From Gemmatimonadetes bacterium 2013_60CM_65_52 (lineage in GTDB: Bacteria > Gemmatimonadota > Gemmatimonadetes > Gemmatimonadales > Gemmatimonadaceae): a stretch of 64,000 nt of DNA. Positions within the stretch are counted from its first letter, which is position 1; every line of letters starts with the position of its first letter. The notes under the pieces were generated by a model. It searched no databases. It saw nothing but the letters and a program-made list of their open reading frames with translations, and had not been told where the DNA came from. Below are positions 11,096-42,391 of this stretch, piece by piece. The DNA lies in NCBI GenBank assembly GCA_002215645.1, contig NGFI01000005.1, forward strand, positions 612,678-676,677, read 5' to 3'. The translations under genes and the position numbers were made by a program.

Positions 11096-12067
11096 GTGAC
11101 GGCGACTCTTCGCGTGGGAGAACTGTTCGAGCAGCTCCGTGAGCTGCTCGAGCTCGAGCACGTGCCGGGCACCAAGGGGTTGGATCGCGTGGTCCGTTCC
11201 TCCGACGTGTCCAGCCCCGGGCTGGCGCTCGCCGGATACGTCGCGCGCTTTCCCGCCGACCGACTCCAGGTGTTCGGCGAGACGGAAGTCACGTACCTGC
11301 GTTCGCTCGATGTCGAGACGCGCCGCGAACATCTGTCGAAGTTCTTCGCCTTTCCGATTCCGTGCCTCTTCGTCACGAAGAAGCTCGACCTTCCGGCGGA
11401 GGTCGTGGAGGAGGCAGTCCGAAGTGGCGTCGCCATCCTGCGGTCGACGCTCAAGACGAACGAGTTCTACACGCGCATCAAGCCCTGGCTCGAGGACGCG
11501 TTCGCGCCGCAGACCACGCTGCACGGCTCATTGGCCGACGTCTACGGTGTCGGGCTTCTGTTCATCGGGCAGAGCGGGATCGGCAAGTCCGAGTGCGTGC
11601 TCGATCTCGTCGAGCGCGGACACCGGATCGTTGCCGATGATCTCGTGCTCGCGCGTCGCCGTGGCAACGACATCCTCATCGGCCGCGGCCACGAGCTCCA
11701 GCGCCATTACATGGAGATTCGCGGCGTGGGGCTCGTGGACATTCCGGCCATCTTCGGCATCCGCGCGGTGCGCCAACAGAAGCGCATCGAGGTCGTCGTT
11801 CAGCTCGAGGAGTGGCGTCAGGGTGCCGACGTGGACCGTACCGGACTGGACGACCAGTACACGGACATTCTCGGTGTCTCCATTCCGCGTATTACCGTTC
11901 ATCTCAATCCCGGCAAGAACATCACCGTGATCGCCGAAGTCATCGCGATGCATCATTTGCTGAAGTGGAGCGGTATCGACCCGGCCGAGCGGTTCAACGA
12001 GGCGCTCATCAGACAGATGCGCGACAAGGCGGCCATCAACCGCTATCTCCGGGAAGACGATGAGTGA
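11096..12067 (+). CDS. hprK: HPr kinase/phosphorylase
   Basis: HprK, 323 residues, phosphorylates HPr on Ser46 with ATP or pyrophosphate and reverses the reaction. The N-terminal domain (to about residue 130) is followed by the kinase domain with the P-loop GQSGIGKS at residues 158-165, the DDLV acidic motif, and the HprK signature HYMEIRGVGLVDIPAIFGIR. The GTG at 11096 is the first start in front of the conserved LRVGELFEQL. The C terminus overlaps the EIIA gene by 8 bp. Its target serine is conserved in the HPr encoded 2.3 kb downstream in the same operon. Confidence 0.96.
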   Translation: MTATLRVGELFEQLRELLELEHVPGTKGLDRVVRSSDVSSPGLALAGYVARFPADRLQVFGETEVTYLRSLDVETRREHLSKFFAFPIPCLFVTKKLDLPAEVVEEAVRSGVAILRSTLKTNEFYTRIKPWLEDAFAPQTTLHGSLADVYGVGLLFIGQSGIGKSECVLDLVERGHRIVADDLVLARRRGNDILIGRGHELQRHYMEIRGVGLVDIPAIFGIRAVRQQKRIEVVVQLEEWRQGADVDRTGLDDQYTDILGVSIPRITVHLNPGKNITVIAEVIAMHHLLKWSGIDPAERFNEALIRQMRDKAAINRYLREDDE

Positions 12068-12452
12068 CATGCCGAAACGCGCCCTCGTCGCCGGCCATGC
12101 GGATTTCGCGGCCGGTCTCGTCTCCGCCGTGGAACAGATCACCGGACAGGGAGAGCAGCTGGTCCCGATTCAGGTCAATGGTTTGTGTGGCGACGAGATC
12201 CAGCAACTGCTTCGCGATTCCATGATGAAGCATCATGTCCGCATCATCTTCACGGATCTCCAGGCAGGAAGCTGTACGATGGCCGCGCGGAAGGTGCTCC
12301 GTGAAATCGAAGGCGGCGTTCTCGTGGCTGGCACCAACCTTCCGATGCTGCTGGACTTCGTCCTCTCCAGCGAGCCGGACGTCGGCGTGGCAGCCACGAC
12401 CGCGGCGGAGCGCGGCCGTGCTTCCGTCAGCGTACACGGAGCGCCCGCGTGA
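12060..12452 (+). CDS. PTS mannose-family EIIA component
   Basis: 130-residue EIIA of the mannose/fructose/sorbose PTS family. The protein begins with the strand ALVAGHADFAAGL, placing the phosphorylated histidine at His13, as in EIIA-Man. The TDLQAGSCTMAAR segment corresponds to the conserved second loop. It takes phosphate from HPr and passes it to EIIB. It is a single-domain protein, not fused to EIIB as in E. coli ManX. Start overlaps the hprK end by 8 bp and its stop overlaps EIIB by 4 bp. Confidence 0.93.
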   Translation: MSDMPKRALVAGHADFAAGLVSAVEQITGQGEQLVPIQVNGLCGDEIQQLLRDSMMKHHVRIIFTDLQAGSCTMAARKVLREIEGGVLVAGTNLPMLLDFVLSSEPDVGVAATTAAERGRASVSVHGAPA

Positions 12453-12937
12453 CCCTCGTGCTCAACCGCATCGACGACCGGCTGATTCACGGGCAGGTCG
12501 TGGTGGGGTGGGGGCAGCCGCTGGACGTCCGGTTCATCGTTCTCGTGGATGATGCCGTGGCAGCGAGCGATTGGGAGCAGGAGCTCTATCGCATGGGCGT
12601 CCCGCCGGAAATGGAGATCCGTTTTCACTCGGCCGCCGCGGCCGCTCCGCTCCTGGACGATTATCGCCTGGAATCGCGCGCCGGAATCCTCCTCACCGGC
12701 GACATCGGCACCATGCGCGCGCTCGTGGAGCACGGTGGTGTGCGCGACGTGAACCTCGGCGGCATCCACCATCGGGCCGGCCGCACGCAGCATCTGCGGT
12801 ACGTGTTCCTGACGCCGGAGGAGGAGAGGGCGCTTCGCGATCTTGCCGCGCACGGCGCGGTGGTGACCGCTCAGGACGTCCCGTCGACGCGCGCCGTTCC
12901 GCTTGACGAGCTGCTCGCCACTCGGGAACCATCGTGA
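12449..12937 (+). CDS. PTS mannose/fructose/sorbose-family EIIB component
   Basis: 162-residue EIIB. The signature RIDDRLIHGQVVVGWG places the phosphohistidine at His14. The NLGGIHHRAGR loop near residues 109-119 is the other conserved part of the fold. The protein accepts phosphate from EIIA and gives it to the sugar bound by EIIC/EIID. Overlaps of 4 bp on both sides show tight coupling. Sugar specificity cannot be read. Confidence 0.93.
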   Translation: MTLVLNRIDDRLIHGQVVVGWGQPLDVRFIVLVDDAVAASDWEQELYRMGVPPEMEIRFHSAAAAAPLLDDYRLESRAGILLTGDIGTMRALVEHGGVRDVNLGGIHHRAGRTQHLRYVFLTPEEERALRDLAAHGAVVTAQDVPSTRAVPLDELLATREPS

Positions 12938-13611
12938 TCGAGCTCGCTCCCATCGCGCTGCTTGGCGGACTCTTTGGCCTCGACGTCGTCTGCTTTCCGC
13001 AGATGATGTTCTCTCGGCCGCTCGTCGCAGCGACCGTTGCGGGCGCGTTTGCCGGCAATACCGCAACGGGCATGTTCGTCGGCGTGGCGATGGAGCTCAT
13101 CGCGCTTGCGACGCTTCCGTTCGGCGCCTCACGGTATCCCGAATGGGGCTCCGCGGCCGTCGTCGGCGGCGCGGTCGCCGCGGCGCTGGAGCCGGGGAAG
13201 CCTGGAGCTCTGACGCTCGGTGTACTGGCGGGCCTCGCGACGGCGTGGGCTGGCGGACTCTCTCTCGTGCAGTTGCGCATCTGGGTGGCGTGGCTCGCGC
13301 GGCGGCGGCGCCCCGCACTCGATGCCGGCTCGCGAGGCGCGGTGCTGAGTCTCCAGCTCGCCGGACTCACCGGCGATCTCGTTCGCGCTGCCGCGGTGAG
13401 CGCGCTCTCGTACGCCATGCTCTTTCCGGTTGCGCGCGCCGCGCAGGGCGTGTGGACGTTGAGTGACTCGGTCTCGCGATCGTTCGTGGTGAGCGTCGCG
13501 GCGGCCGTGGCGGGCACGGTGGCGTGGACGATCTTCCACTCGACGCGCGGCGCGCGGTGGTACTTCGCCGCCGGTCTGCTTATCGCGGTGCTGGGCTTGC
13601 TGGTGCGATGA
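12934..13611 (+). CDS. PTS mannose-family EIIC membrane component
   Basis: 225-residue polytopic membrane protein matching the EIIC of mannose-type systems (conserved segment QMMFSRPLVAATVAGAFAGN, then GVAMELIALATLPFGASRYP). It is somewhat shorter than ManY-type EIIC (about 265 residues). With EIID it forms the sugar channel. GTG start overlapping EIIB by 4 bp. It can be assigned by position as well as sequence. Confidence 0.88.
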   Translation: MIELAPIALLGGLFGLDVVCFPQMMFSRPLVAATVAGAFAGNTATGMFVGVAMELIALATLPFGASRYPEWGSAAVVGGAVAAALEPGKPGALTLGVLAGLATAWAGGLSLVQLRIWVAWLARRRRPALDAGSRGAVLSLQLAGLTGDLVRAAAVSALSYAMLFPVARAAQGVWTLSDSVSRSFVVSVAAAVAGTVAWTIFHSTRGARWYFAAGLLIAVLGLLVR

Positions 13612-14390
13612 CAGCCGTCCTCGACGCCGGCATGGCGCCGCACCCGCGGCTCTCGCCCATGACATGGGTGAGGATCTTTTCACGCATGCTCGCGATTCAG
13701 GGATCATGGAATTACGAGACCCTGATCGGCAACGGCATCGCGTTCTGCGTCGAGCCGGCGCTCCGGCAGTTGCCCGGTGGAATCAAGGCGCGCGAGTTCA
13801 AGGAGGCGCTCACGAGGGAGGGTGCCTACTTCAACGCGCATCCATACCTCGCGGCCGTCGCGGTCGGCGCGCTAGCTCGCGTGGAGCTCTCTGGTGTACC
13901 GCCCGACCGCATCGAGCGCTTCCGTACCGCGCTGTGCGGACCGCTCGGCAGCGTCGGCGACCGACTCGTGTGGGCTGGGTGGTTGCCTCTGTGTTCGCTG
14001 ATCGCGCTGCTGATCTTCGGCCTTGGAGGCGGGGCGTCCGTGGTGCTCGGGGTCTTTCTGGTACTCTATAATGCCGGCCACCTCGCGCTTCGCGTCTGGG
14101 GATTGCACGTTGGATGGACGCGCGGGTTGAACGTGGCGTCGGCGCTGGCGAATCCCGTGCTCCGGCAAGGTCCCGCGTACGTCGCCCGAGCGGCTGCCTT
14201 TGCCGCAGGAATCGCCGTGCCATTCACCGCGGCGCGGTTGCTGGGCCATCACGTCGCGCTGCTCGGAGTCGTCCTCGGCTCGGCGGCGCTCGGCGCAGCG
14301 GCGCTCGTCCGACTGCATGGTCGCGTGGAAGGCTACAAGCTCGCCCTCGTTCTGATCGCGTTGTTTGCCCTCGTCTCGGTGGCACGCTGA
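13608..14390 (+). CDS. PTS mannose-family EIID membrane component
   Basis: 260-residue EIID. The family start is clear: FSRMLAIQGSWNYETLIGNG and FCVEPALRQLPGG, followed by soluble helices and a C-terminal hydrophobic region with several membrane segments (from about residue 120). ATG at 13608 overlaps the EIIC stop by 4 bp, and its own stop shares a base with the HPr start. Confidence 0.92.
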   Translation: MTAVLDAGMAPHPRLSPMTWVRIFSRMLAIQGSWNYETLIGNGIAFCVEPALRQLPGGIKAREFKEALTREGAYFNAHPYLAAVAVGALARVELSGVPPDRIERFRTALCGPLGSVGDRLVWAGWLPLCSLIALLIFGLGGGASVVLGVFLVLYNAGHLALRVWGLHVGWTRGLNVASALANPVLRQGPAYVARAAAFAAGIAVPFTAARLLGHHVALLGVVLGSAALGAAALVRLHGRVEGYKLALVLIALFALVSVAR

Positions 14391-33686: not shown

Positions 33687-34988
33687 CTACTGCATGAAGA
33701 ACATCATGCCGCCTCCGTCGCCGCCGAAGCGCGGATTCACGACGTTGTTCAGCACCGACCCGAACGAATAGTTCAGACCCACGAAGAAGAACTGGCTGAA
33801 GCGCGTGCTCTGCTGCGTCTGCCGGAGCAGGGCGTCATCGCGCGTGATGGTCTCCTTCGGGATGTAGAACTGATCGTGAATCGCGTCGTAATTGCCGCTG
33901 AAGTTCACGCTCAGCCCCTTCACGATCCGCACGTTCGCACCGAGGGAATAGGTGATTCTGCGCCGGGCGAGATCGCTCAGGTAGCTCGTGGCGTCCACGC
34001 CGGCGTTCACGGAGCCCCATGTCTGCCGCTGACTGAACGCCGTCGAGAAGAGCTGCACGGGAAGCGTCTCCCTCAGCTTGTTGAACAGCGTCGTGTCGTA
34101 GTAGCTGAAGCTGCTGACACCGACGCCGTACTGGAACCGCAGTTGACGTCGCGTCGCATCGGCGTACGGGAAAAGGTCGTACTCCACGGCCGGCGTGATA
34201 CGCGCGGAGAAACGCTGATTCAGATAGGTGGAGGAGGTAAAGGATCCCTTCAGCCCCGCCGACCAGTGGTCGTCGAGGCTCTTCACCTGGAGTAGACTGG
34301 CGAAGTAGCTCCGTTGGATAAACACGGATTGCGTGCCGCCGAAGCTGAAGCGGCTCTCGCTGTAGTTCTCGTTCGCCGACACGGAGGTCTTCCACGCGTC
34401 GGTGACGCGATTGACCGCGACCTGCCCGTTGATGTAGACGCTCGAGTAACTCTCCTCGCGGAAGCCATTCCCGTTCGAGCCCAGCGTGAACACCCACGCG
34501 TTCCACGGATCACGCACGGGCGCCGTCGATGACGAGTCCTTGTTCGTGGCCGCCGTGAACGTGACTGCGAGACGCTCCGCCGCGCTAGTCCGAGCGAGAT
34601 AGCGGACCAACCCGAGCTGCAATGTGCGGGCGAGGCCACGCCGAGTCTCGTCGTTCGTGCTGGACTGTGGGGCGACGTACGACAGGGTGTCGCTGACACC
34701 CTCGAACTTGTGCTGGCCAATGAACGCCAGCGTGAAGAATGTGCCGCCCCCGCCGGTACGCTGGCTCGTTGCCAGCACGTGTACGTCGGCGGCCGTCCGC
34801 TCTCTGACCCAGTTCACGCTCACGATTTCCGTGCGGAAGAATTCTTCATCGCAGAAGAATCCGCTGCAGTCGAGAAACACGTTGAAGGCTCGTGCTGCCG
34901 GCTGGGCGCCGATGGCGTCGCGCGGCATCAGCAACGCGATCGCGGTGAGGGCAACACCAAGGAATGCACGGCGCAATGCGATCTCCAT
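33687..34988 (-). CDS. Secreted barrel-like protein, last gene of the padR cassette
   Basis: 433 residues with a signal peptide (MEIALRRAFLGVALTAIALL then MPRDAIGAQ). The mature part starts with a conserved-looking FNVFLDCSGFFCDEEF that has a Cys pair, then an anion-like beta-rich region of barrel character (RSYFASLLQVKSLDDHWSAG, FSYYDTTLFNKLRETLPVQL). It ends in a Gly- and Met-rich FGGDGGGMMFFMQ. I do not recognise a family. It starts by a one-base overlap with the upstream gene (TGATG), so all three cassette genes are co-expressed. Three bases separate its stop from that of the convergent acylase gene. Confidence 0.7.
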   Translation of the reverse strand: MEIALRRAFLGVALTAIALLMPRDAIGAQPAARAFNVFLDCSGFFCDEEFFRTEIVSVNWVRERTAADVHVLATSQRTGGGGTFFTLAFIGQHKFEGVSDTLSYVAPQSSTNDETRRGLARTLQLGLVRYLARTSAAERLAVTFTAATNKDSSSTAPVRDPWNAWVFTLGSNGNGFREESYSSVYINGQVAVNRVTDAWKTSVSANENYSESRFSFGGTQSVFIQRSYFASLLQVKSLDDHWSAGLKGSFTSSTYLNQRFSARITPAVEYDLFPYADATRRQLRFQYGVGVSSFSYYDTTLFNKLRETLPVQLFSTAFSQRQTWGSVNAGVDATSYLSDLARRRITYSLGANVRIVKGLSVNFSGNYDAIHDQFYIPKETITRDDALLRQTQQSTRFSQFFFVGLNYSFGSVLNNVVNPRFGGDGGGMMFFMQ

Positions 34989-36184
34989 CAGTAGTTGACG
35001 CGCTCGAGAGCGAGTGAACCTTCGACGACCGCCGCTCCGAACGTGCCGTGGCCAACGTTGACGGTCGCGCCGCCTGGGCGCACCATACAGTACGTGCCGT
35101 ACTCCTCGAGCGGGATCACATACACGCGCAGGCCGTTCCCCCGAGAGCACGCTGCGTCACCACGCAGAGTGATCGTGGGCGGTGCCTCGCCCTTCCGCCG
35201 CGGCAGGTACTTGAGCCAGAACGCGCCCTTCGGCAGCGACCACCTCAGCGTGTCGCCTCGCTCCAGCCGGACCGGTACTGCAACGAACCGCTGATCGGCC
35301 CGGAGTCCTTCCAGCGACCGCACGCGCTCGTGGACGATTACCTGCATCCCCGCGCTTCTATCCCCGACGTTGACGTCTACCATCGTCTGCCCCACCGCTC
35401 GCGGACGGATGGTATGTCCCACGATGACCGCGACCGAGCTGTCGTGCACCAGCGCCGCTCCTCGGAGTTGCATGACCGGGAGACCGTCAAATCCGATGGC
35501 GACGAACGGAAGGTCGCGTGGCCGATCGCCAGCGACGAAGTCAATCCAGTGACTCGCGCGCAACTCCTGCACGGGGCGACACAGGACGGCCACGTCGGTG
35601 GCGATCATGCCGAGCGACGCGCGCACCGTGGCCTCGCCATCCCACGTACACGTGACGACGCCCTGCGAAGAAACGGTGATCGGCGCGCCGGATATCCACT
35701 GATACTGCACGCCCTGCGACGCGAGCGGACGGTTTCGCTTGTCGAGCACGCGCATCTCGAGTTGAACGGCGTGCACGCTGTTGATGACGATACCGTCCGC
35801 CGGATTTGCAACGTTGGCCAGAAGTCGTGATGGCGGGCCATCGCGGAGCAGGACGGCGACCAGCGCGGCCGTCAGCATCAGCCCGATGCCCAGCAGCGCC
35901 GCGGCCAGTCGCAACCGCACCCGCGGCTCTCCCCTTCGGAGCACGCTTGTGATCAGGTGTGGCGCCGAGCGCACAACTTCGAGGCCAAGCCAAACGCGGG
36001 CGAGCATCCGGCCGTCGCGTGTCGCGCGAAGCGCAAACTCCTCGGCGAGGTCGCCAACCATGGCCTCCACCAACTCCGCGTCCAGACCAATCGCCACCAG
36101 CAGCCGCTCGTACATCGAGAGGTTGGTGCGCCGGTGGCCACGCGCGTCGGCGCCGAGCGCGCGAATACTTGCGAGTCGTCTCAT
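34988..36184 (-). CDS. Permease-prefix-like membrane protein with large extracellular domain, no permease
   Basis: 398 residues. Residues about 22-80 resemble the permease prefix domain found in PadR-linked MacB/FtsX-type transporters (LLVAIGLDAELVEAMVGDLA, EEFALRATRDG). A membrane helix follows near residues 105-125 (LAAALLGIGLMLTAALVAVL). The remaining 270 residues are a beta-rich, probably extracytoplasmic region with two Ig-like parts (QLEMRVLDKRNRPLASQGVQ and later). The permease domains that normally follow are absent. The ATG at 36184 overlaps the padR stop by 4 bp. Function unknown; a membrane sensor or co-receptor partner for PadR is possible. Confidence 0.6.
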   Translation of the reverse strand: MRRLASIRALGADARGHRRTNLSMYERLLVAIGLDAELVEAMVGDLAEEFALRATRDGRMLARVWLGLEVVRSAPHLITSVLRRGEPRVRLRLAAALLGIGLMLTAALVAVLLRDGPPSRLLANVANPADGIVINSVHAVQLEMRVLDKRNRPLASQGVQYQWISGAPITVSSQGVVTCTWDGEATVRASLGMIATDVAVLCRPVQELRASHWIDFVAGDRPRDLPFVAIGFDGLPVMQLRGAALVHDSSVAVIVGHTIRPRAVGQTMVDVNVGDRSAGMQVIVHERVRSLEGLRADQRFVAVPVRLERGDTLRWSLPKGAFWLKYLPRRKGEAPPTITLRGDAACSRGNGLRVYVIPLEEYGTYCMVRPGGATVNVGHGTFGAAVVEGSLALERVNY

Positions 36185-36513
36185 GCCGGCTCCGGACGAA
36201 CGCTTCCGAACCCGGCCCACAGCGCCGCGGTGTTCCGCTCGGCATCACGAAGCGCGCGAGCTCCTGCGCCGGTGATTGCATAGTGGCGCCGCGAACGGCC
36301 ACCGCGGAAGGGTTGTGGCTCGCCCGTGCGCGACTTGAGAACACCTTTGTCCTCGAGACGTTGGAGGGTGGTGTAGACCGCGCCGATGGAGTAATCCCGG
36401 CCGGTCCGTTCGGTGAGGTCTCGGCGGACCGCGAGCCCATATGCGTCGTTGCCGAGGCGCGCGACAGCGAGGAGGGCGGCGAGCTCGAGGCTTCCCAAGG
36501 TCAATGTGGGCAT
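36181..36513 (-). CDS. PadR-family transcriptional regulator
   Basis: 110-residue winged-helix repressor. It starts MPTLTLGSLELAALLAVARL and continues with the recognition helix YSIGAVYTTLQRLEDKGVLK and the wing GGRSRRHYAIT. Members bind as dimers to short palindromes. A palindrome overlaps its own promoter. The start at 36513 is favoured over an in-frame ATG at 36549 because PadR proteins begin near the LTLGSLE segment. Confidence 0.93.
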   Translation of the reverse strand: MPTLTLGSLELAALLAVARLGNDAYGLAVRRDLTERTGRDYSIGAVYTTLQRLEDKGVLKSRTGEPQPFRGGRSRRHYAITGAGARALRDAERNTAALWAGFGSVRPEPA

Positions 36514-36515
36514 AA

Positions 36516-36532
36516 GTTCTATTATGTAGAAC
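36516..36532. promoter_or_regulatory. Palindromic operator candidate at padR
   Basis: GTTCTA and TAGAAC (6 bp arms, 5-nt spacer) lie directly before the padR start and span the -10 hexamer. Palindromes of this size are typical PadR sites, so autorepression is likely. Binding itself is inferred. Confidence 0.5.
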
Positions 36533-36549
36533 AAATCGGCAGACCGCAA
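36521..36549 (-). promoter_or_regulatory. Probable leaderless promoter of the padR cassette
   Basis: On the minus strand a weak -35 TTGCGG (36549-36544) and CATAAT (36526-36521) are 17 bp apart. The -10 ends seven bases before the ATG at 36513, so transcription would start at or beside the start codon. Confidence 0.5.
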
Positions 36550-36632
36550 GCGGATGCGTTTACAGCTTTACCGTAACTTCAATGCCGCCAATTCCAGGCA
36601 CTACGCCCAAGTAGAAGGCGTTATAGAATGCG

Positions 36633-37463
36633 CTAATGGCTGATGGTGGCTTCTGCTTGTGCATGATAGGACCGATGTCCGGCGTTGTAGATCAACTCAA
36701 CGGTAGAATTCTGGCTTACGGCGGCGGCCAGGCCAGGATTCATCCAGCGGAGGCGCTCAATCGCTTTCGCGTGCCATCCGATAGGATCGCGGTCCCATAT
36801 CGGATTGTGATGTGCGACGATGTTTCGAAAGTCGCGCAAGTCGCTGAACGCGCGTCCAATGTCCGCTCGATTCTGTTTCGGTCTGGGACAGGAAGGAAAC
36901 CGCCGCCCGGCGGCGGGCCAAATCTGTGGGCCGTGGACATTCCCCTGTTCATACGGGCTGTCGCATAACCGCACCCAGAAGCCAAAGCTCAGACGGCTAA
37001 TCAAGTGTCCGGCCGTCCATTTTCGAGGATGCTTCGACATGGCGTTGAGAGCCTTCGCGACGTGTTCCTCCTCTCTTGCTTGAAGCATGGACGGCCTTGC
37101 CGTTAGCCAGCAGGCGACTTGCGTCGTCCTGTAAACACGCCTCGCCGTCGTCTCCGTGGCCGCATCGAAGATGGCATTTCGAAAGGTGACTTCGATGGCA
37201 TGGAGAATCGGATGAAACGCGGACGCCAACGCCAAATTCCATAGATATCTGGCTATCGCATCCGTCGAGGAGGTGTCGGACTCCAGGCTGTATGCCGCCA
37301 TGCGATCTTTGGAGAACGCCCGGAAGAGTTGTCGGTAGGTCAGGGGCGGCTTGGCCGTTCCGCTCGGAGGTGCCACGGAAGGCGTGTGTGATGGTTGAGG
37401 GAGAGGACTGCCCTCGACGACCCTCGAGCTCTTGACATCCGCCTCCAGCTGACTCAGATTCAT
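36633..37463 (-). CDS. Abi-like HEPN-domain protein
   Basis: 276 residues resembling the Abi-like (AbiD/AbiF, Abi_2) family. The N-terminal 45 residues are Pro/Ser-rich. Helical segments follow ([40 protein letters not shown]). The HEPN active-site pattern R-x4-6-H is present as RNIVAHH (Arg213, His218 and His219). Members of this group are abortive-infection or toxin RNases. Base composition looks lower in GC than the neighbours, which suggests transfer. Start at 37463 has GAGGA about eight bases upstream, but it lies inside a predicted hairpin. Confidence 0.75.
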
Positions 37464-39466: not shown

Positions 39467-42391
39467 GTGTCGAGACTCCTTCTGGCAATGCGATCTTCTT
39501 ACCATGCAATTTTACTGGTCGCGGCAAGCATTGTAGTCACCACGTGCTCGGATGCGGCCAGCGGGCCGCGTTCACCATCTGGTGCGGAACTCGTTCCGGG
39601 ACATATCGTCCTTACCGCGCAGCTCTCCCCGCTGGCGGCCCGCGCCCTTGCCGTCCTTGTGGCGAGCGGAATAGACGTGAAGGAGATCCATGTTCGGTTG
39701 ACGGCGCCACAAGAAGGCACACGCGATACTGTCATCGTATCTCCGATGTTTCAGGGCTCAGTTCGCATCGATATCCCTGTCCAGATACGAAGCACGGACC
39801 AGTCCTTTGCGGCGTTGATCGAGCTTCGCGCTACCGATCACTTGATACTCTTTTCCGGAACGCAGCTTGTGACGGTTCGCGGCGCGAATTCCGCGCTTCC
39901 GGTGCCGATTCTCACCGTCGACTATGCTGGACCGGGCAGGTCGGCTGAGACGGTAACCCTCTCGCCCTCGGATATGACTGTAGTGGGCGTATCCACAATC
40001 ACGTACACCGTGAGTGTACTCGACGCGACAGGTCAGATGGTGTCGAGTGTGCCACTGCAGTGGGCGTCGAGCGACACCTCGATCGCCACGATCGCTTCAA
40101 TGGGTAGTGCCAATGCGAACGCGCAGGCGCGTGGCAAACGTGGCGTCACGACACTGAGTGCAACCACACCGCTCGGCGTTCGGGGAAGTGTGAAATTGTC
40201 AGGCGTGCCAGTGGCAACGCACCTCGTTTTGGTCGGTGGCGAAGGGCAGACTGGCGTGGCCGGCAGCGCGCTGGCGGCGCCCATGGTGGTCGAGGTGCAG
40301 GCCGCAGACAATTTGCCCGTGCCCGGAGCGGTGGTGAACTTTCGTGCGATGACGCCTGGAGGCAGCGTGGCCAACGCTTCGAGTGTCGCCGATACGTCCG
40401 GTCGCGCGGCTACCAAAATGCTCTTGGGAAAGGGCGGAGGACCCTATCGCTTCGAGGCCTCCTCGGGTCGGACGGAGCCCGTAGTTGCGTCGGCGTCGGC
40501 CACGCCGGCTCCTGCGGCGGCCATCACCATCGTCTCGGGCGATGGACAAGTGGACTCAACGTCGACCAGACTCGTTATTCCGCTCGTCGTAAGAGTTACC
40601 GATCAGTATGGTGGCCCCGTTGACGCGCAGGCGGTGAATTGGCTGAAAGTCACGGGTAGTGGGCTCCTTGGTTCTGCGAGCACGACTACCACCAGCGATG
40701 GAACCGCCAGCAATATTTATGTGCTTGGCAGTCTCCCTGGTGGCGATGTAGTGAGCGCAACGGTTCCTGGTGTCGGTGGGGCCTCGGGCGCGGTGCAATT
40801 TTCCGCCACGACGCTTCAACGCGGTGTCGCCACGCTTTCGATTGCTAGGGGCGGTCAACAGACCGCGGTGGTCGGCACGGCTGTAAGCGTTCCGCCGAGC
40901 GTCCTGGTGAAAGACGCGAACGGCCTCCCGGTGCCAAACGCGCCTGTCGTCTTCGGCGTGGCAAGGGGAAGCGGTCGTGCGACTGGCCTCATAGCCACAA
41001 GTAACGCGGCGGGTATTGCGACGCTTGGATCATGGACGCTCGATACGATTGCCGGGATGAACACGCTGACGGCAACGACGGGAGCGGTCAGCGCGGCAAT
41101 AACGGCTACCGGGATCGCGGGGGCCGCAACGCAGATCCTGGTTGCCTCAGCTCCAACAGCGCTGACGGTGGGCATCATCGCGAACTTCGCCTTCCAGGTT
41201 GCGGATGCCTACGGAAACCCCGTCGCACGTTCTGGAATTCCCCTGATCGTGTCGTGGTGGTGGCTCAACGGCCCACGAGGTTCCGGGGGACCAGCGACGA
41301 CCAATGCGCAGGGTATTGGCACGTTCTTTATGTCCCCCTCACCGGCCGTACCTTGCACTTTCGTCATCTCGGCTCCTGGTCTCACCACGAACACCTTTAC
41401 CCTGCCGGCCGTGGCAGGCGCGCCGGCGGCTATCTACTTCAAAGCATCTATGTACGGCACGAATTTGAGCGGGCTGCCGTTCGCGCACCAGCCAGTCGTG
41501 CAGATCACGGACGATGGACTCAATCCGGTGAACGCGCCCGGATTCATTGTTTCGGCGGTCCTTGACACAAGTGGCGGCTTGTCAAACGGCACGTTAGGCG
41601 GTAAGACGACGGTCACGTCTGATGCAACCGGCGCCGCCGCGTTCACCGACCTCTCGATCACGGGCGCGCCAGGACTTTATGGTGTGAGCTTCAAGGTTCC
41701 CGGCCTGAGGTCTCCCACACCCTCGGGGGCTCTCCTGATCGATCTTGCAGCAACCACTATCGCGGAAAGCGCTGGGAACAACCAATCGGCTCAGGCTGGC
41801 AGTCCCGTACTGGTACCACCGGCAGTACTTGTGACCGACCGCAATGGGGCTCCTCGAGCCGGTACCATCGTCTCCTTCACCTTCACGACGGCCGATTCAG
41901 GCGGACGGATTTCTAACGGCTTCACGACCGGATCAGCGGTAGCAGTCCAAACCAACGCCTCTGGCATCGCACAGCTCACGCGTTGGTCGCTTGGATTTAC
42001 GGCCGGAGTCAAATCGCTCTCCGCCACACCGTTGAATCCACTTAACGGGAGTCCGGTGACTTTCACAGCCACTGCTGTTCCTGGACCCGGTGTGGCACTG
42101 CGCTTCATTACGCCGCCGCCCCCAAATGCAACGAGTAGCATCCCATTCGGACCGCAGCCCGCAGTGCAGCTCACGGACGCCTACGATAATGCCGTGAAGA
42201 CGGCAGGCGTAGTGATCTCAGCCGCGATTGCGAGTGGAGCAGGCGTACTGTCGAACTCTACGGCGATCACCAACGCGGTAGGGGTCGCGACATTCAGCTC
42301 TCTCACGATGACGGGGACGGGCAGTATCATCCTGTCGTTCGCGGGGCCGGGCTACAGCACGCTGTCGTCGGGTACCATCGTGGTCCACTAG
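39467..42391 (+). CDS. Long secreted Ig-like (Big-type) repeat protein
   Basis: 974 residues. A signal peptide ends near VVTTCSDAA, with a possible but weak lipobox. The rest is about eight beta-sandwich repeats of 85-110 residues, resembling Big_1/Big_2 bacterial Ig-like domains, for example QAADNLPVPGAVVNFRAMTP, VRVTDQYGGPVDAQAVNWLK, VLVKDANGLPVPNAPVVF and VLVTDRNGAPRAGTIVSFTF. No anchor or enzymatic domain is seen. Such proteins are usually surface adhesins. AAGGCGA lies 11 bases before the GTG at 39467; ATG at 39488 is an alternative. GC content appears lower than in neighbouring genes. Confidence 0.75.
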   Translation: MSRLLLAMRSSYHAILLVAASIVVTTCSDAASGPRSPSGAELVPGHIVLTAQLSPLAARALAVLVASGIDVKEIHVRLTAPQEGTRDTVIVSPMFQGSVRIDIPVQIRSTDQSFAALIELRATDHLILFSGTQLVTVRGANSALPVPILTVDYAGPGRSAETVTLSPSDMTVVGVSTITYTVSVLDATGQMVSSVPLQWASSDTSIATIASMGSANANAQARGKRGVTTLSATTPLGVRGSVKLSGVPVATHLVLVGGEGQTGVAGSALAAPMVVEVQAADNLPVPGAVVNFRAMTPGGSVANASSVADTSGRAATKMLLGKGGGPYRFEASSGRTEPVVASASATPAPAAAITIVSGDGQVDSTSTRLVIPLVVRVTDQYGGPVDAQAVNWLKVTGSGLLGSASTTTTSDGTASNIYVLGSLPGGDVVSATVPGVGGASGAVQFSATTLQRGVATLSIARGGQQTAVVGTAVSVPPSVLVKDANGLPVPNAPVVFGVARGSGRATGLIATSNAAGIATLGSWTLDTIAGMNTLTATTGAVSAAITATGIAGAATQILVASAPTALTVGIIANFAFQVADAYGNPVARSGIPLIVSWWWLNGPRGSGGPATTNAQGIGTFFMSPSPAVPCTFVISAPGLTTNTFTLPAVAGAPAAIYFKASMYGTNLSGLPFAHQPVVQITDDGLNPVNAPGFIVSAVLDTSGGLSNGTLGGKTTVTSDATGAAAFTDLSITGAPGLYGVSFKVPGLRSPTPSGALLIDLAATTIAESAGNNQSAQAGSPVLVPPAVLVTDRNGAPRAGTIVSFTFTTADSGGRISNGFTTGSAVAVQTNASGIAQLTRWSLGFTAGVKSLSATPLNPLNGSPVTFTATAVPGPGVALRFITPPPPNATSSIPFGPQPAVQLTDAYDNAVKTAGVVISAAIASGAGVLSNSTAITNAVGVATFSSLTMTGTGSIILSFAGPGYSTLSSGTIVVH

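Follow-up and report, generated by a model that had tools for sequence, protein, structure and literature searches.

Layout of the locus

Three overlapping genes lie on the minus strand at positions 33687-36532 of the window—that is, the whole 64,000-nt stretch of DNA analysed, which belongs to a host genome of 4.2 Mb—and the named relatives of the locus are metagenome-assembled genomes (MAGs) of Gemmatimonadaceae and Gemmatimonadales. A preliminary description had called the three genes as padR, a 398-residue protein and a 433-residue protein, and these calls are confirmed. The features are as follows.

36511-36550, minus strand: promoter/operator-like element, CTTGCG-N8-ATTTGTTCTACATAATAGAAC-TT-ATG, conserved DNA before padR
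36181-36513, minus strand: padR, standalone PadR-like winged-helix repressor of 110 aa, ATG at 36513
34988-36184, minus strand: gene 2, 398 aa, with a prefix domain (about 24-84), a transmembrane (TM) helix (87-112) and an ectodomain (118-398) that combines tandem Ig-like domains with C-terminal beta structure
33687-34988, minus strand: gene 3, 433 aa, a secreted protein, probably a beta-barrel of the outer membrane; its family is widespread and unnamed

The padR stop and the gene 2 start overlap by 4 nt (ATGA), and the gene 2 stop shares one base with the gene 3 start (TGATG), an arrangement that suggests a translationally coupled operon. The padR product matches the PadR winged helix-turn-helix (wHTH) profile of Pfam above its cut-off (PF03551, E=2.2e-13) and the NCBIfam profile padR_acidobact below it (TIGR03433, E=2.4e-7).

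A shared ancestral position for the cassette was considered and rejected: in the congener sequence examined, the acylase orthologues have no cassette behind them, and its chromosomal position appears to be specific to the source genome. Directly upstream of the operon, on the same strand, lies an Abi_2-like gene (36633-37463; PF07751, E 5e-7) with a third-position GC of 0.66, compared with about 0.8 in its neighbours; it is possibly a recent acquisition. Elsewhere in the window, an ORF run on the plus strand (12060-14390) resembles, by eye, EIIA/EIIB/EIIC/EIID of a mannose-type PTS.

Gene 2 and its linkage to padR

An AlphaFold2 model of gene 2, built from an 8-sequence alignment (mean pLDDT 80.8), places three prefix helices at residues 24-31, 36-57 and 59-84, a TM helix at 87-112 and an all-beta ectodomain at 118-395. 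Foldseek matches the model to tandem Ig domains, such as those of SbsC and LigA, and the weak Big-like matches of Pfam on the ectodomain are consistent with that result; the large extracytoplasmic beta domain of the preliminary description is thus borne out by the model, and is Ig-like. The TM helix is preceded by an arginine cluster, the protein has no signal peptide, and neither alignment of Ig-type homologues shows any variation at Cys179 or Cys202; all of this is consistent with an N-in topology and an oxidised ectodomain. Full-length Ig-type homologues, which occur in several other genomes, are 33-50% identical and keep invariant residues and cysteines throughout. Near gene 2, on the plus strand (39467-42391), a 974-aa protein with a lipobox-like N terminus carries several Big_1 Ig-like domains.

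The N-terminal region had been likened to the prefix domain normally attached to MacB/FtsX-type permeases. Residues 28-72 match the NCBIfam profile perm_prefix_2 (NF038404) at 18.2 bits (E=0.0023); the prefix fragment alone reaches E=3e-4, and the window protein scores 18-21 bits overall, below the curated cut-off of 35, whereas all 13 prefix-bearing homologues match the profile (best E 1.4e-12). The likeness therefore stands for the family, where the match appears to be real, and not at cut-off for gene 2 taken singly. The absence of the permease also held: no permease family (FtsX/MacB) is matched after the prefix, where one TM helix and the beta ectodomain are found instead. A PDB sequence search with the prefix returned nothing credible. 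The contig search yielded no match with gene 2 as a single sequence and 11 loci with the alignment as query.

Within the family, padR lies directly upstream of every prefix-bearing gene 2 homologue found, usually with the ATGA overlap; these loci comprise the full-length Ig-type genes and five in which the prefix is followed by a multi-TM domain, with further loci from the operator search described below. The padR homologues that precede gene 2 homologues are 60-76% identical. A survey of 121 Gemmatimonadota genomes with NF038404 gave 17 positive genomes, and in 29 of the 30 best loci padR was directly upstream on the same strand; most of these loci encode MacB/FtsX permeases. Since the source genome has only five PadR genes, this linkage is far beyond chance. 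Loci in the same phylum that contain a HAAS domain likewise lie behind PadR.

Very short prefix ORFs behind padR, extending about 50-70 aa past the match (L133, L138, L147, L148 and L120), were found in other genera and in one Pyrinomonadaceae MAG, and are either minimal prefix proteins or frameshifts. One homologue of the gene 2 ectodomain (L070 / G082:C18), possibly a decayed copy, is aberrant at its N terminus, and the PadR found with it is divergent and encoded on the other strand.

The DNA upstream of padR is conserved as well. The consensus element, CTTGCG-N8-ATTTGTTCTACA, contains the palindrome GTTCTA-N5-TAGAAC, which is perfect at this locus (GTTCTA-CATAA-TAGAAC, 36516-36532; hairpin z=-2.7) and immediately precedes the padR ATG (36513-36511). 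The element occurs once in the whole 4.2-Mb source genome with up to 3 mismatches allowed, in a pattern search of a kind that would miss degenerate PadR sites elsewhere in the genome. Among 179 family genomes, 19 sites were found, and all 19 lie directly before a padR/prefix gene pair (in the L169 and L172 operons the prefix gene was recognised by eye from the reading frames); the reversed control pattern gave one match in the same search. The right half of the element is partly conserved across the 19 sites, and T28, which lies outside the search pattern, is invariant in them. The distance from element to ATG varies between 19 and 22 nt, and therefore it is the DNA, not a coding frame, that is conserved; for the same reason, since the frame to the ATG is variable, the idea that the conserved residues before it (LFY..) belong to a longer N terminus of the protein was rejected. 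Together with the strict coupling of padR, this operator-like element argues for the PadR control that had been suggested earlier.

Behind this constant padR, prefix and operator, the C-terminal parts differ: ten are Ig-like, eight are multi-TM and one is a bare TM segment (L169). Because these domains are exchangeable, it is padR and the prefix that make up the conserved functional core. The weakly supported padR+prefix tree is compatible with the Ig type having arisen once, inside the multi-TM type. Ectodomain homologues with lipobox-like N termini also occur free-standing in related genomes, without padR or prefix (L073, L075 and L076), which suggests that the Ig-type receptor arose by fusion of such a protein to the prefix.

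Mechanism, alternatives and the place of gene 3

On present evidence, it is fairly probable that padR and its membrane partner form an autoregulated operon, with the prefix domain linking the membrane protein to PadR. The steps that follow are inferred, from the binding of this PadR to DNA and its contact with the prefix to the sensing of a ligand and the sense in which the operon responds. PadR would bind the palindrome GTTCTA-N5-TAGAAC, a site that overlaps both the padR promoter and the start of the gene, and would repress padR, gene 2 and, in the source genome, gene 3. Gene 2 would span the membrane once, N-in, with its cytosolic three-helix prefix coupling to PadR and its Ig-like ectodomain facing the periplasm. 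A change at the ectodomain or in the membrane would alter the prefix domain, which would then capture or alter PadR and relieve repression; the operon would then yield more receptor and, here, the gene 3 envelope protein. Against this scheme, the prefix may serve in stability or targeting, with gene 2 acting as a plain effector, and if PadR has no target beyond the operon, any benefit of the two-gene versions has to come from gene 2. Of the earlier suggestion of envelope sensing under PadR, the regulatory part is supported, and the sensing itself is plausible.

Gene 2 may instead be no more than an envelope effector under PadR repression, such as an Ig-like protein that is produced under stress and sits at the surface or binds the cell wall. 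In that case, the prefix would be a non-signalling relic of a permease ancestor, and PadR would sense a cytosolic small molecule, as the PadR proteins LmrR and LftR themselves do. The free-standing ectodomains with lipobox-like N termini favour such an effector, since they imply that the ectodomain can act without PadR, and the autoregulated PadR operons of Listeria, as described in PMC6624303, encode TM proteins without a demonstrated receptor role. However, no part of gene 2 other than the prefix is common to every architecture (Ig, multi-TM, bare TM and MacB), and the prefix almost always follows padR, whereas one would expect a relic to disappear and the ectodomain to stay; we regard this alternative as unlikely, if still the one to be taken most seriously.

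A larger unit had been proposed in the preliminary description, namely a sensing or export module formed by all three genes. The gene 3 product begins with a signal-peptide-like segment, and the N-terminal Cys pair noted earlier (C41 and C46) proves invariant in 23 family members; the protein is probably an outer-membrane beta-barrel. The barrel assignment itself is less firm, in that weak profile similarity is confined to relatives: among the 23, seven match DUF6089 (best 0.005), four match T9SS PorG (best 0.008) and two match DUF481 (best 0.03), and gene 3 itself has no DUF6089/PorG-type profile match. Its single-sequence structure model (pLDDT 29.3) is unusable, and PDB sequence searches with gene 3 and its family gave nothing credible. 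It thus shares with DUF6089, PorG and DUF481 outer-membrane proteins a secreted, beta-rich pattern and, through some relatives, a weak profile similarity, but all of the matches are very weak.

Homologues of gene 3 occur in 70 of 148 family genomes, and a paralogue elsewhere in the source genome is 47% identical. The start and stop codons overlap, as they would in co-transcribed and translationally coupled genes, and several sister operons do carry a co-directional gene for an extracytoplasmic protein in third place, so a dedicated module in which the single-pass and secreted barrel-like proteins form an envelope-spanning sensing or export complex deserves consideration. Yet no PadR or gene 2 lies beside gene 3 homologues in any of 48 other loci examined, and a congeneric homologue that is 73-74% identical (L006) is located elsewhere, among different neighbours. 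The third genes of the sister operons are, moreover, unrelated: the next gene encodes an S41 peptidase in L110, a beta-lactamase-fold protein in L113 and another predicted secreted protein in L111, and L064, L115 and L116 have no co-directional third gene. Gene 3 thus fails the test of conserved adjacency to padR and gene 2 that the preliminary description itself had set; a three-gene complex is very unlikely, and nothing points to export. Because its family is widespread and stands beside PadR in 0/48 other loci, gene 3 is best seen as a lineage-specific addition—a local passenger, probably co-transcribed with padR and gene 2 in the source genome—and the conserved unit is two genes, padR and gene 2.

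The least probable reading takes gene 2 for a MacB/ADOP permease that has decayed or been truncated and has no function of its own: a prefix typical of MacB/FtsX-type permeases would fit such an origin, but this is contradicted by the full-length Ig-type homologues, in which reading frame and architecture are conserved and invariant residues and cysteines are retained, and by an ectodomain that is confidently folded in the model and unrelated to permease sequence.

Relation to known PadR systems

The autoregulated receptor operon favoured here has its closest parallel in the HAAS-PadR dyad, which has been proposed as an alternative to two-component signalling (mSystems 2024, PMC11237479). As in that system, a standalone gene for a PadR-like wHTH protein adjoins a gene for a membrane protein with an N-terminal helical domain, predicted to comprise three helices, behind which varied membrane or sensory domains, including FtsX/MacB, are fused (PMC11237479); here, padR overlaps gene 2 by 4 nt, and this arrangement is conserved in the homologues. 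The HAAS domain is characterised there by three consecutive helices, of which the third is kinked and carries a GxP motif (PMC11237479). Three helices are likewise predicted for the gene 2 prefix, but the third has a conserved proline (P75, in R-x-x-P-H) and no GxP, and Pfam finds no HAAS match. Profiles PF22564 and PF08006 did not match any of the 13 prefix-bearing members at E<=1; a PF08006 search that gave no matches anywhere, controls included, is uninformative. Comparison by hhalign with seven HAAS-like sequences from the phylum gave a plausible register at a probability of 0.5% (E=0.12), which leaves homology to HAAS unsupported. Extracytoplasmic Ig domains on a single TM helix, too, are not among the architectures named in the portion of that account available to us (PMC11237479). 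By analogy, the padR-gene 2 pair would work like a HAAS-PadR dyad while being a variant and not a member of it.

Two other groups offer partial parallels. The perm_prefix_2 transporters and acidobacterial-type PadR-permease pairs (NF038404, TIGR03433) have the same prefix and the same padR-prefix order (29/30 best loci), but in gene 2 an Ig-type ectodomain takes the place of the permease. In Listeria, the PadR repressors LstR and LltR (Lmo0599) mainly control their own operons, which encode TM proteins (PMC6624303); these are Firmicutes systems with other membrane partners, and neither perm_prefix_2 nor an Ig ectodomain is reported in the relevant sections of that study (PMC6624303).

The components are thus of known kinds, and what seems new, relative to the sources cited here, is the architecture, the near-invariant link to padR and the single-site operator; the phrase "permease prefix domain" was not found in the literature searched. 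Whatever is fused behind the so-called permease prefix (a permease, a multi-TM domain, an Ig receptor or a bare TM segment), the prefix is nearly always found after padR, which argues for a signalling adaptor and not a part of the transport machinery. More tentatively, and with somewhat less than even confidence, we propose that coupling to PadR is the dedicated role of permease prefix domain 2, a domain either distinct from HAAS or very remote from it, in a modular form of one-step transmembrane signalling from receptor prefix to PadR, that Gemmatimonadaceae swapped the permease or multi-TM part for an Ig-type ectodomain, and that the receptor operon is the only regulatory target. Judged by its sequence, padR with its single-pass Ig-type membrane protein looks like a small self-controlled envelope sensor, and it offers a very small testable system, with one repressor, one receptor and one operator per genome. 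If this is true, a receptor-like branch would be added to the PadR-based alternatives to two-component systems.
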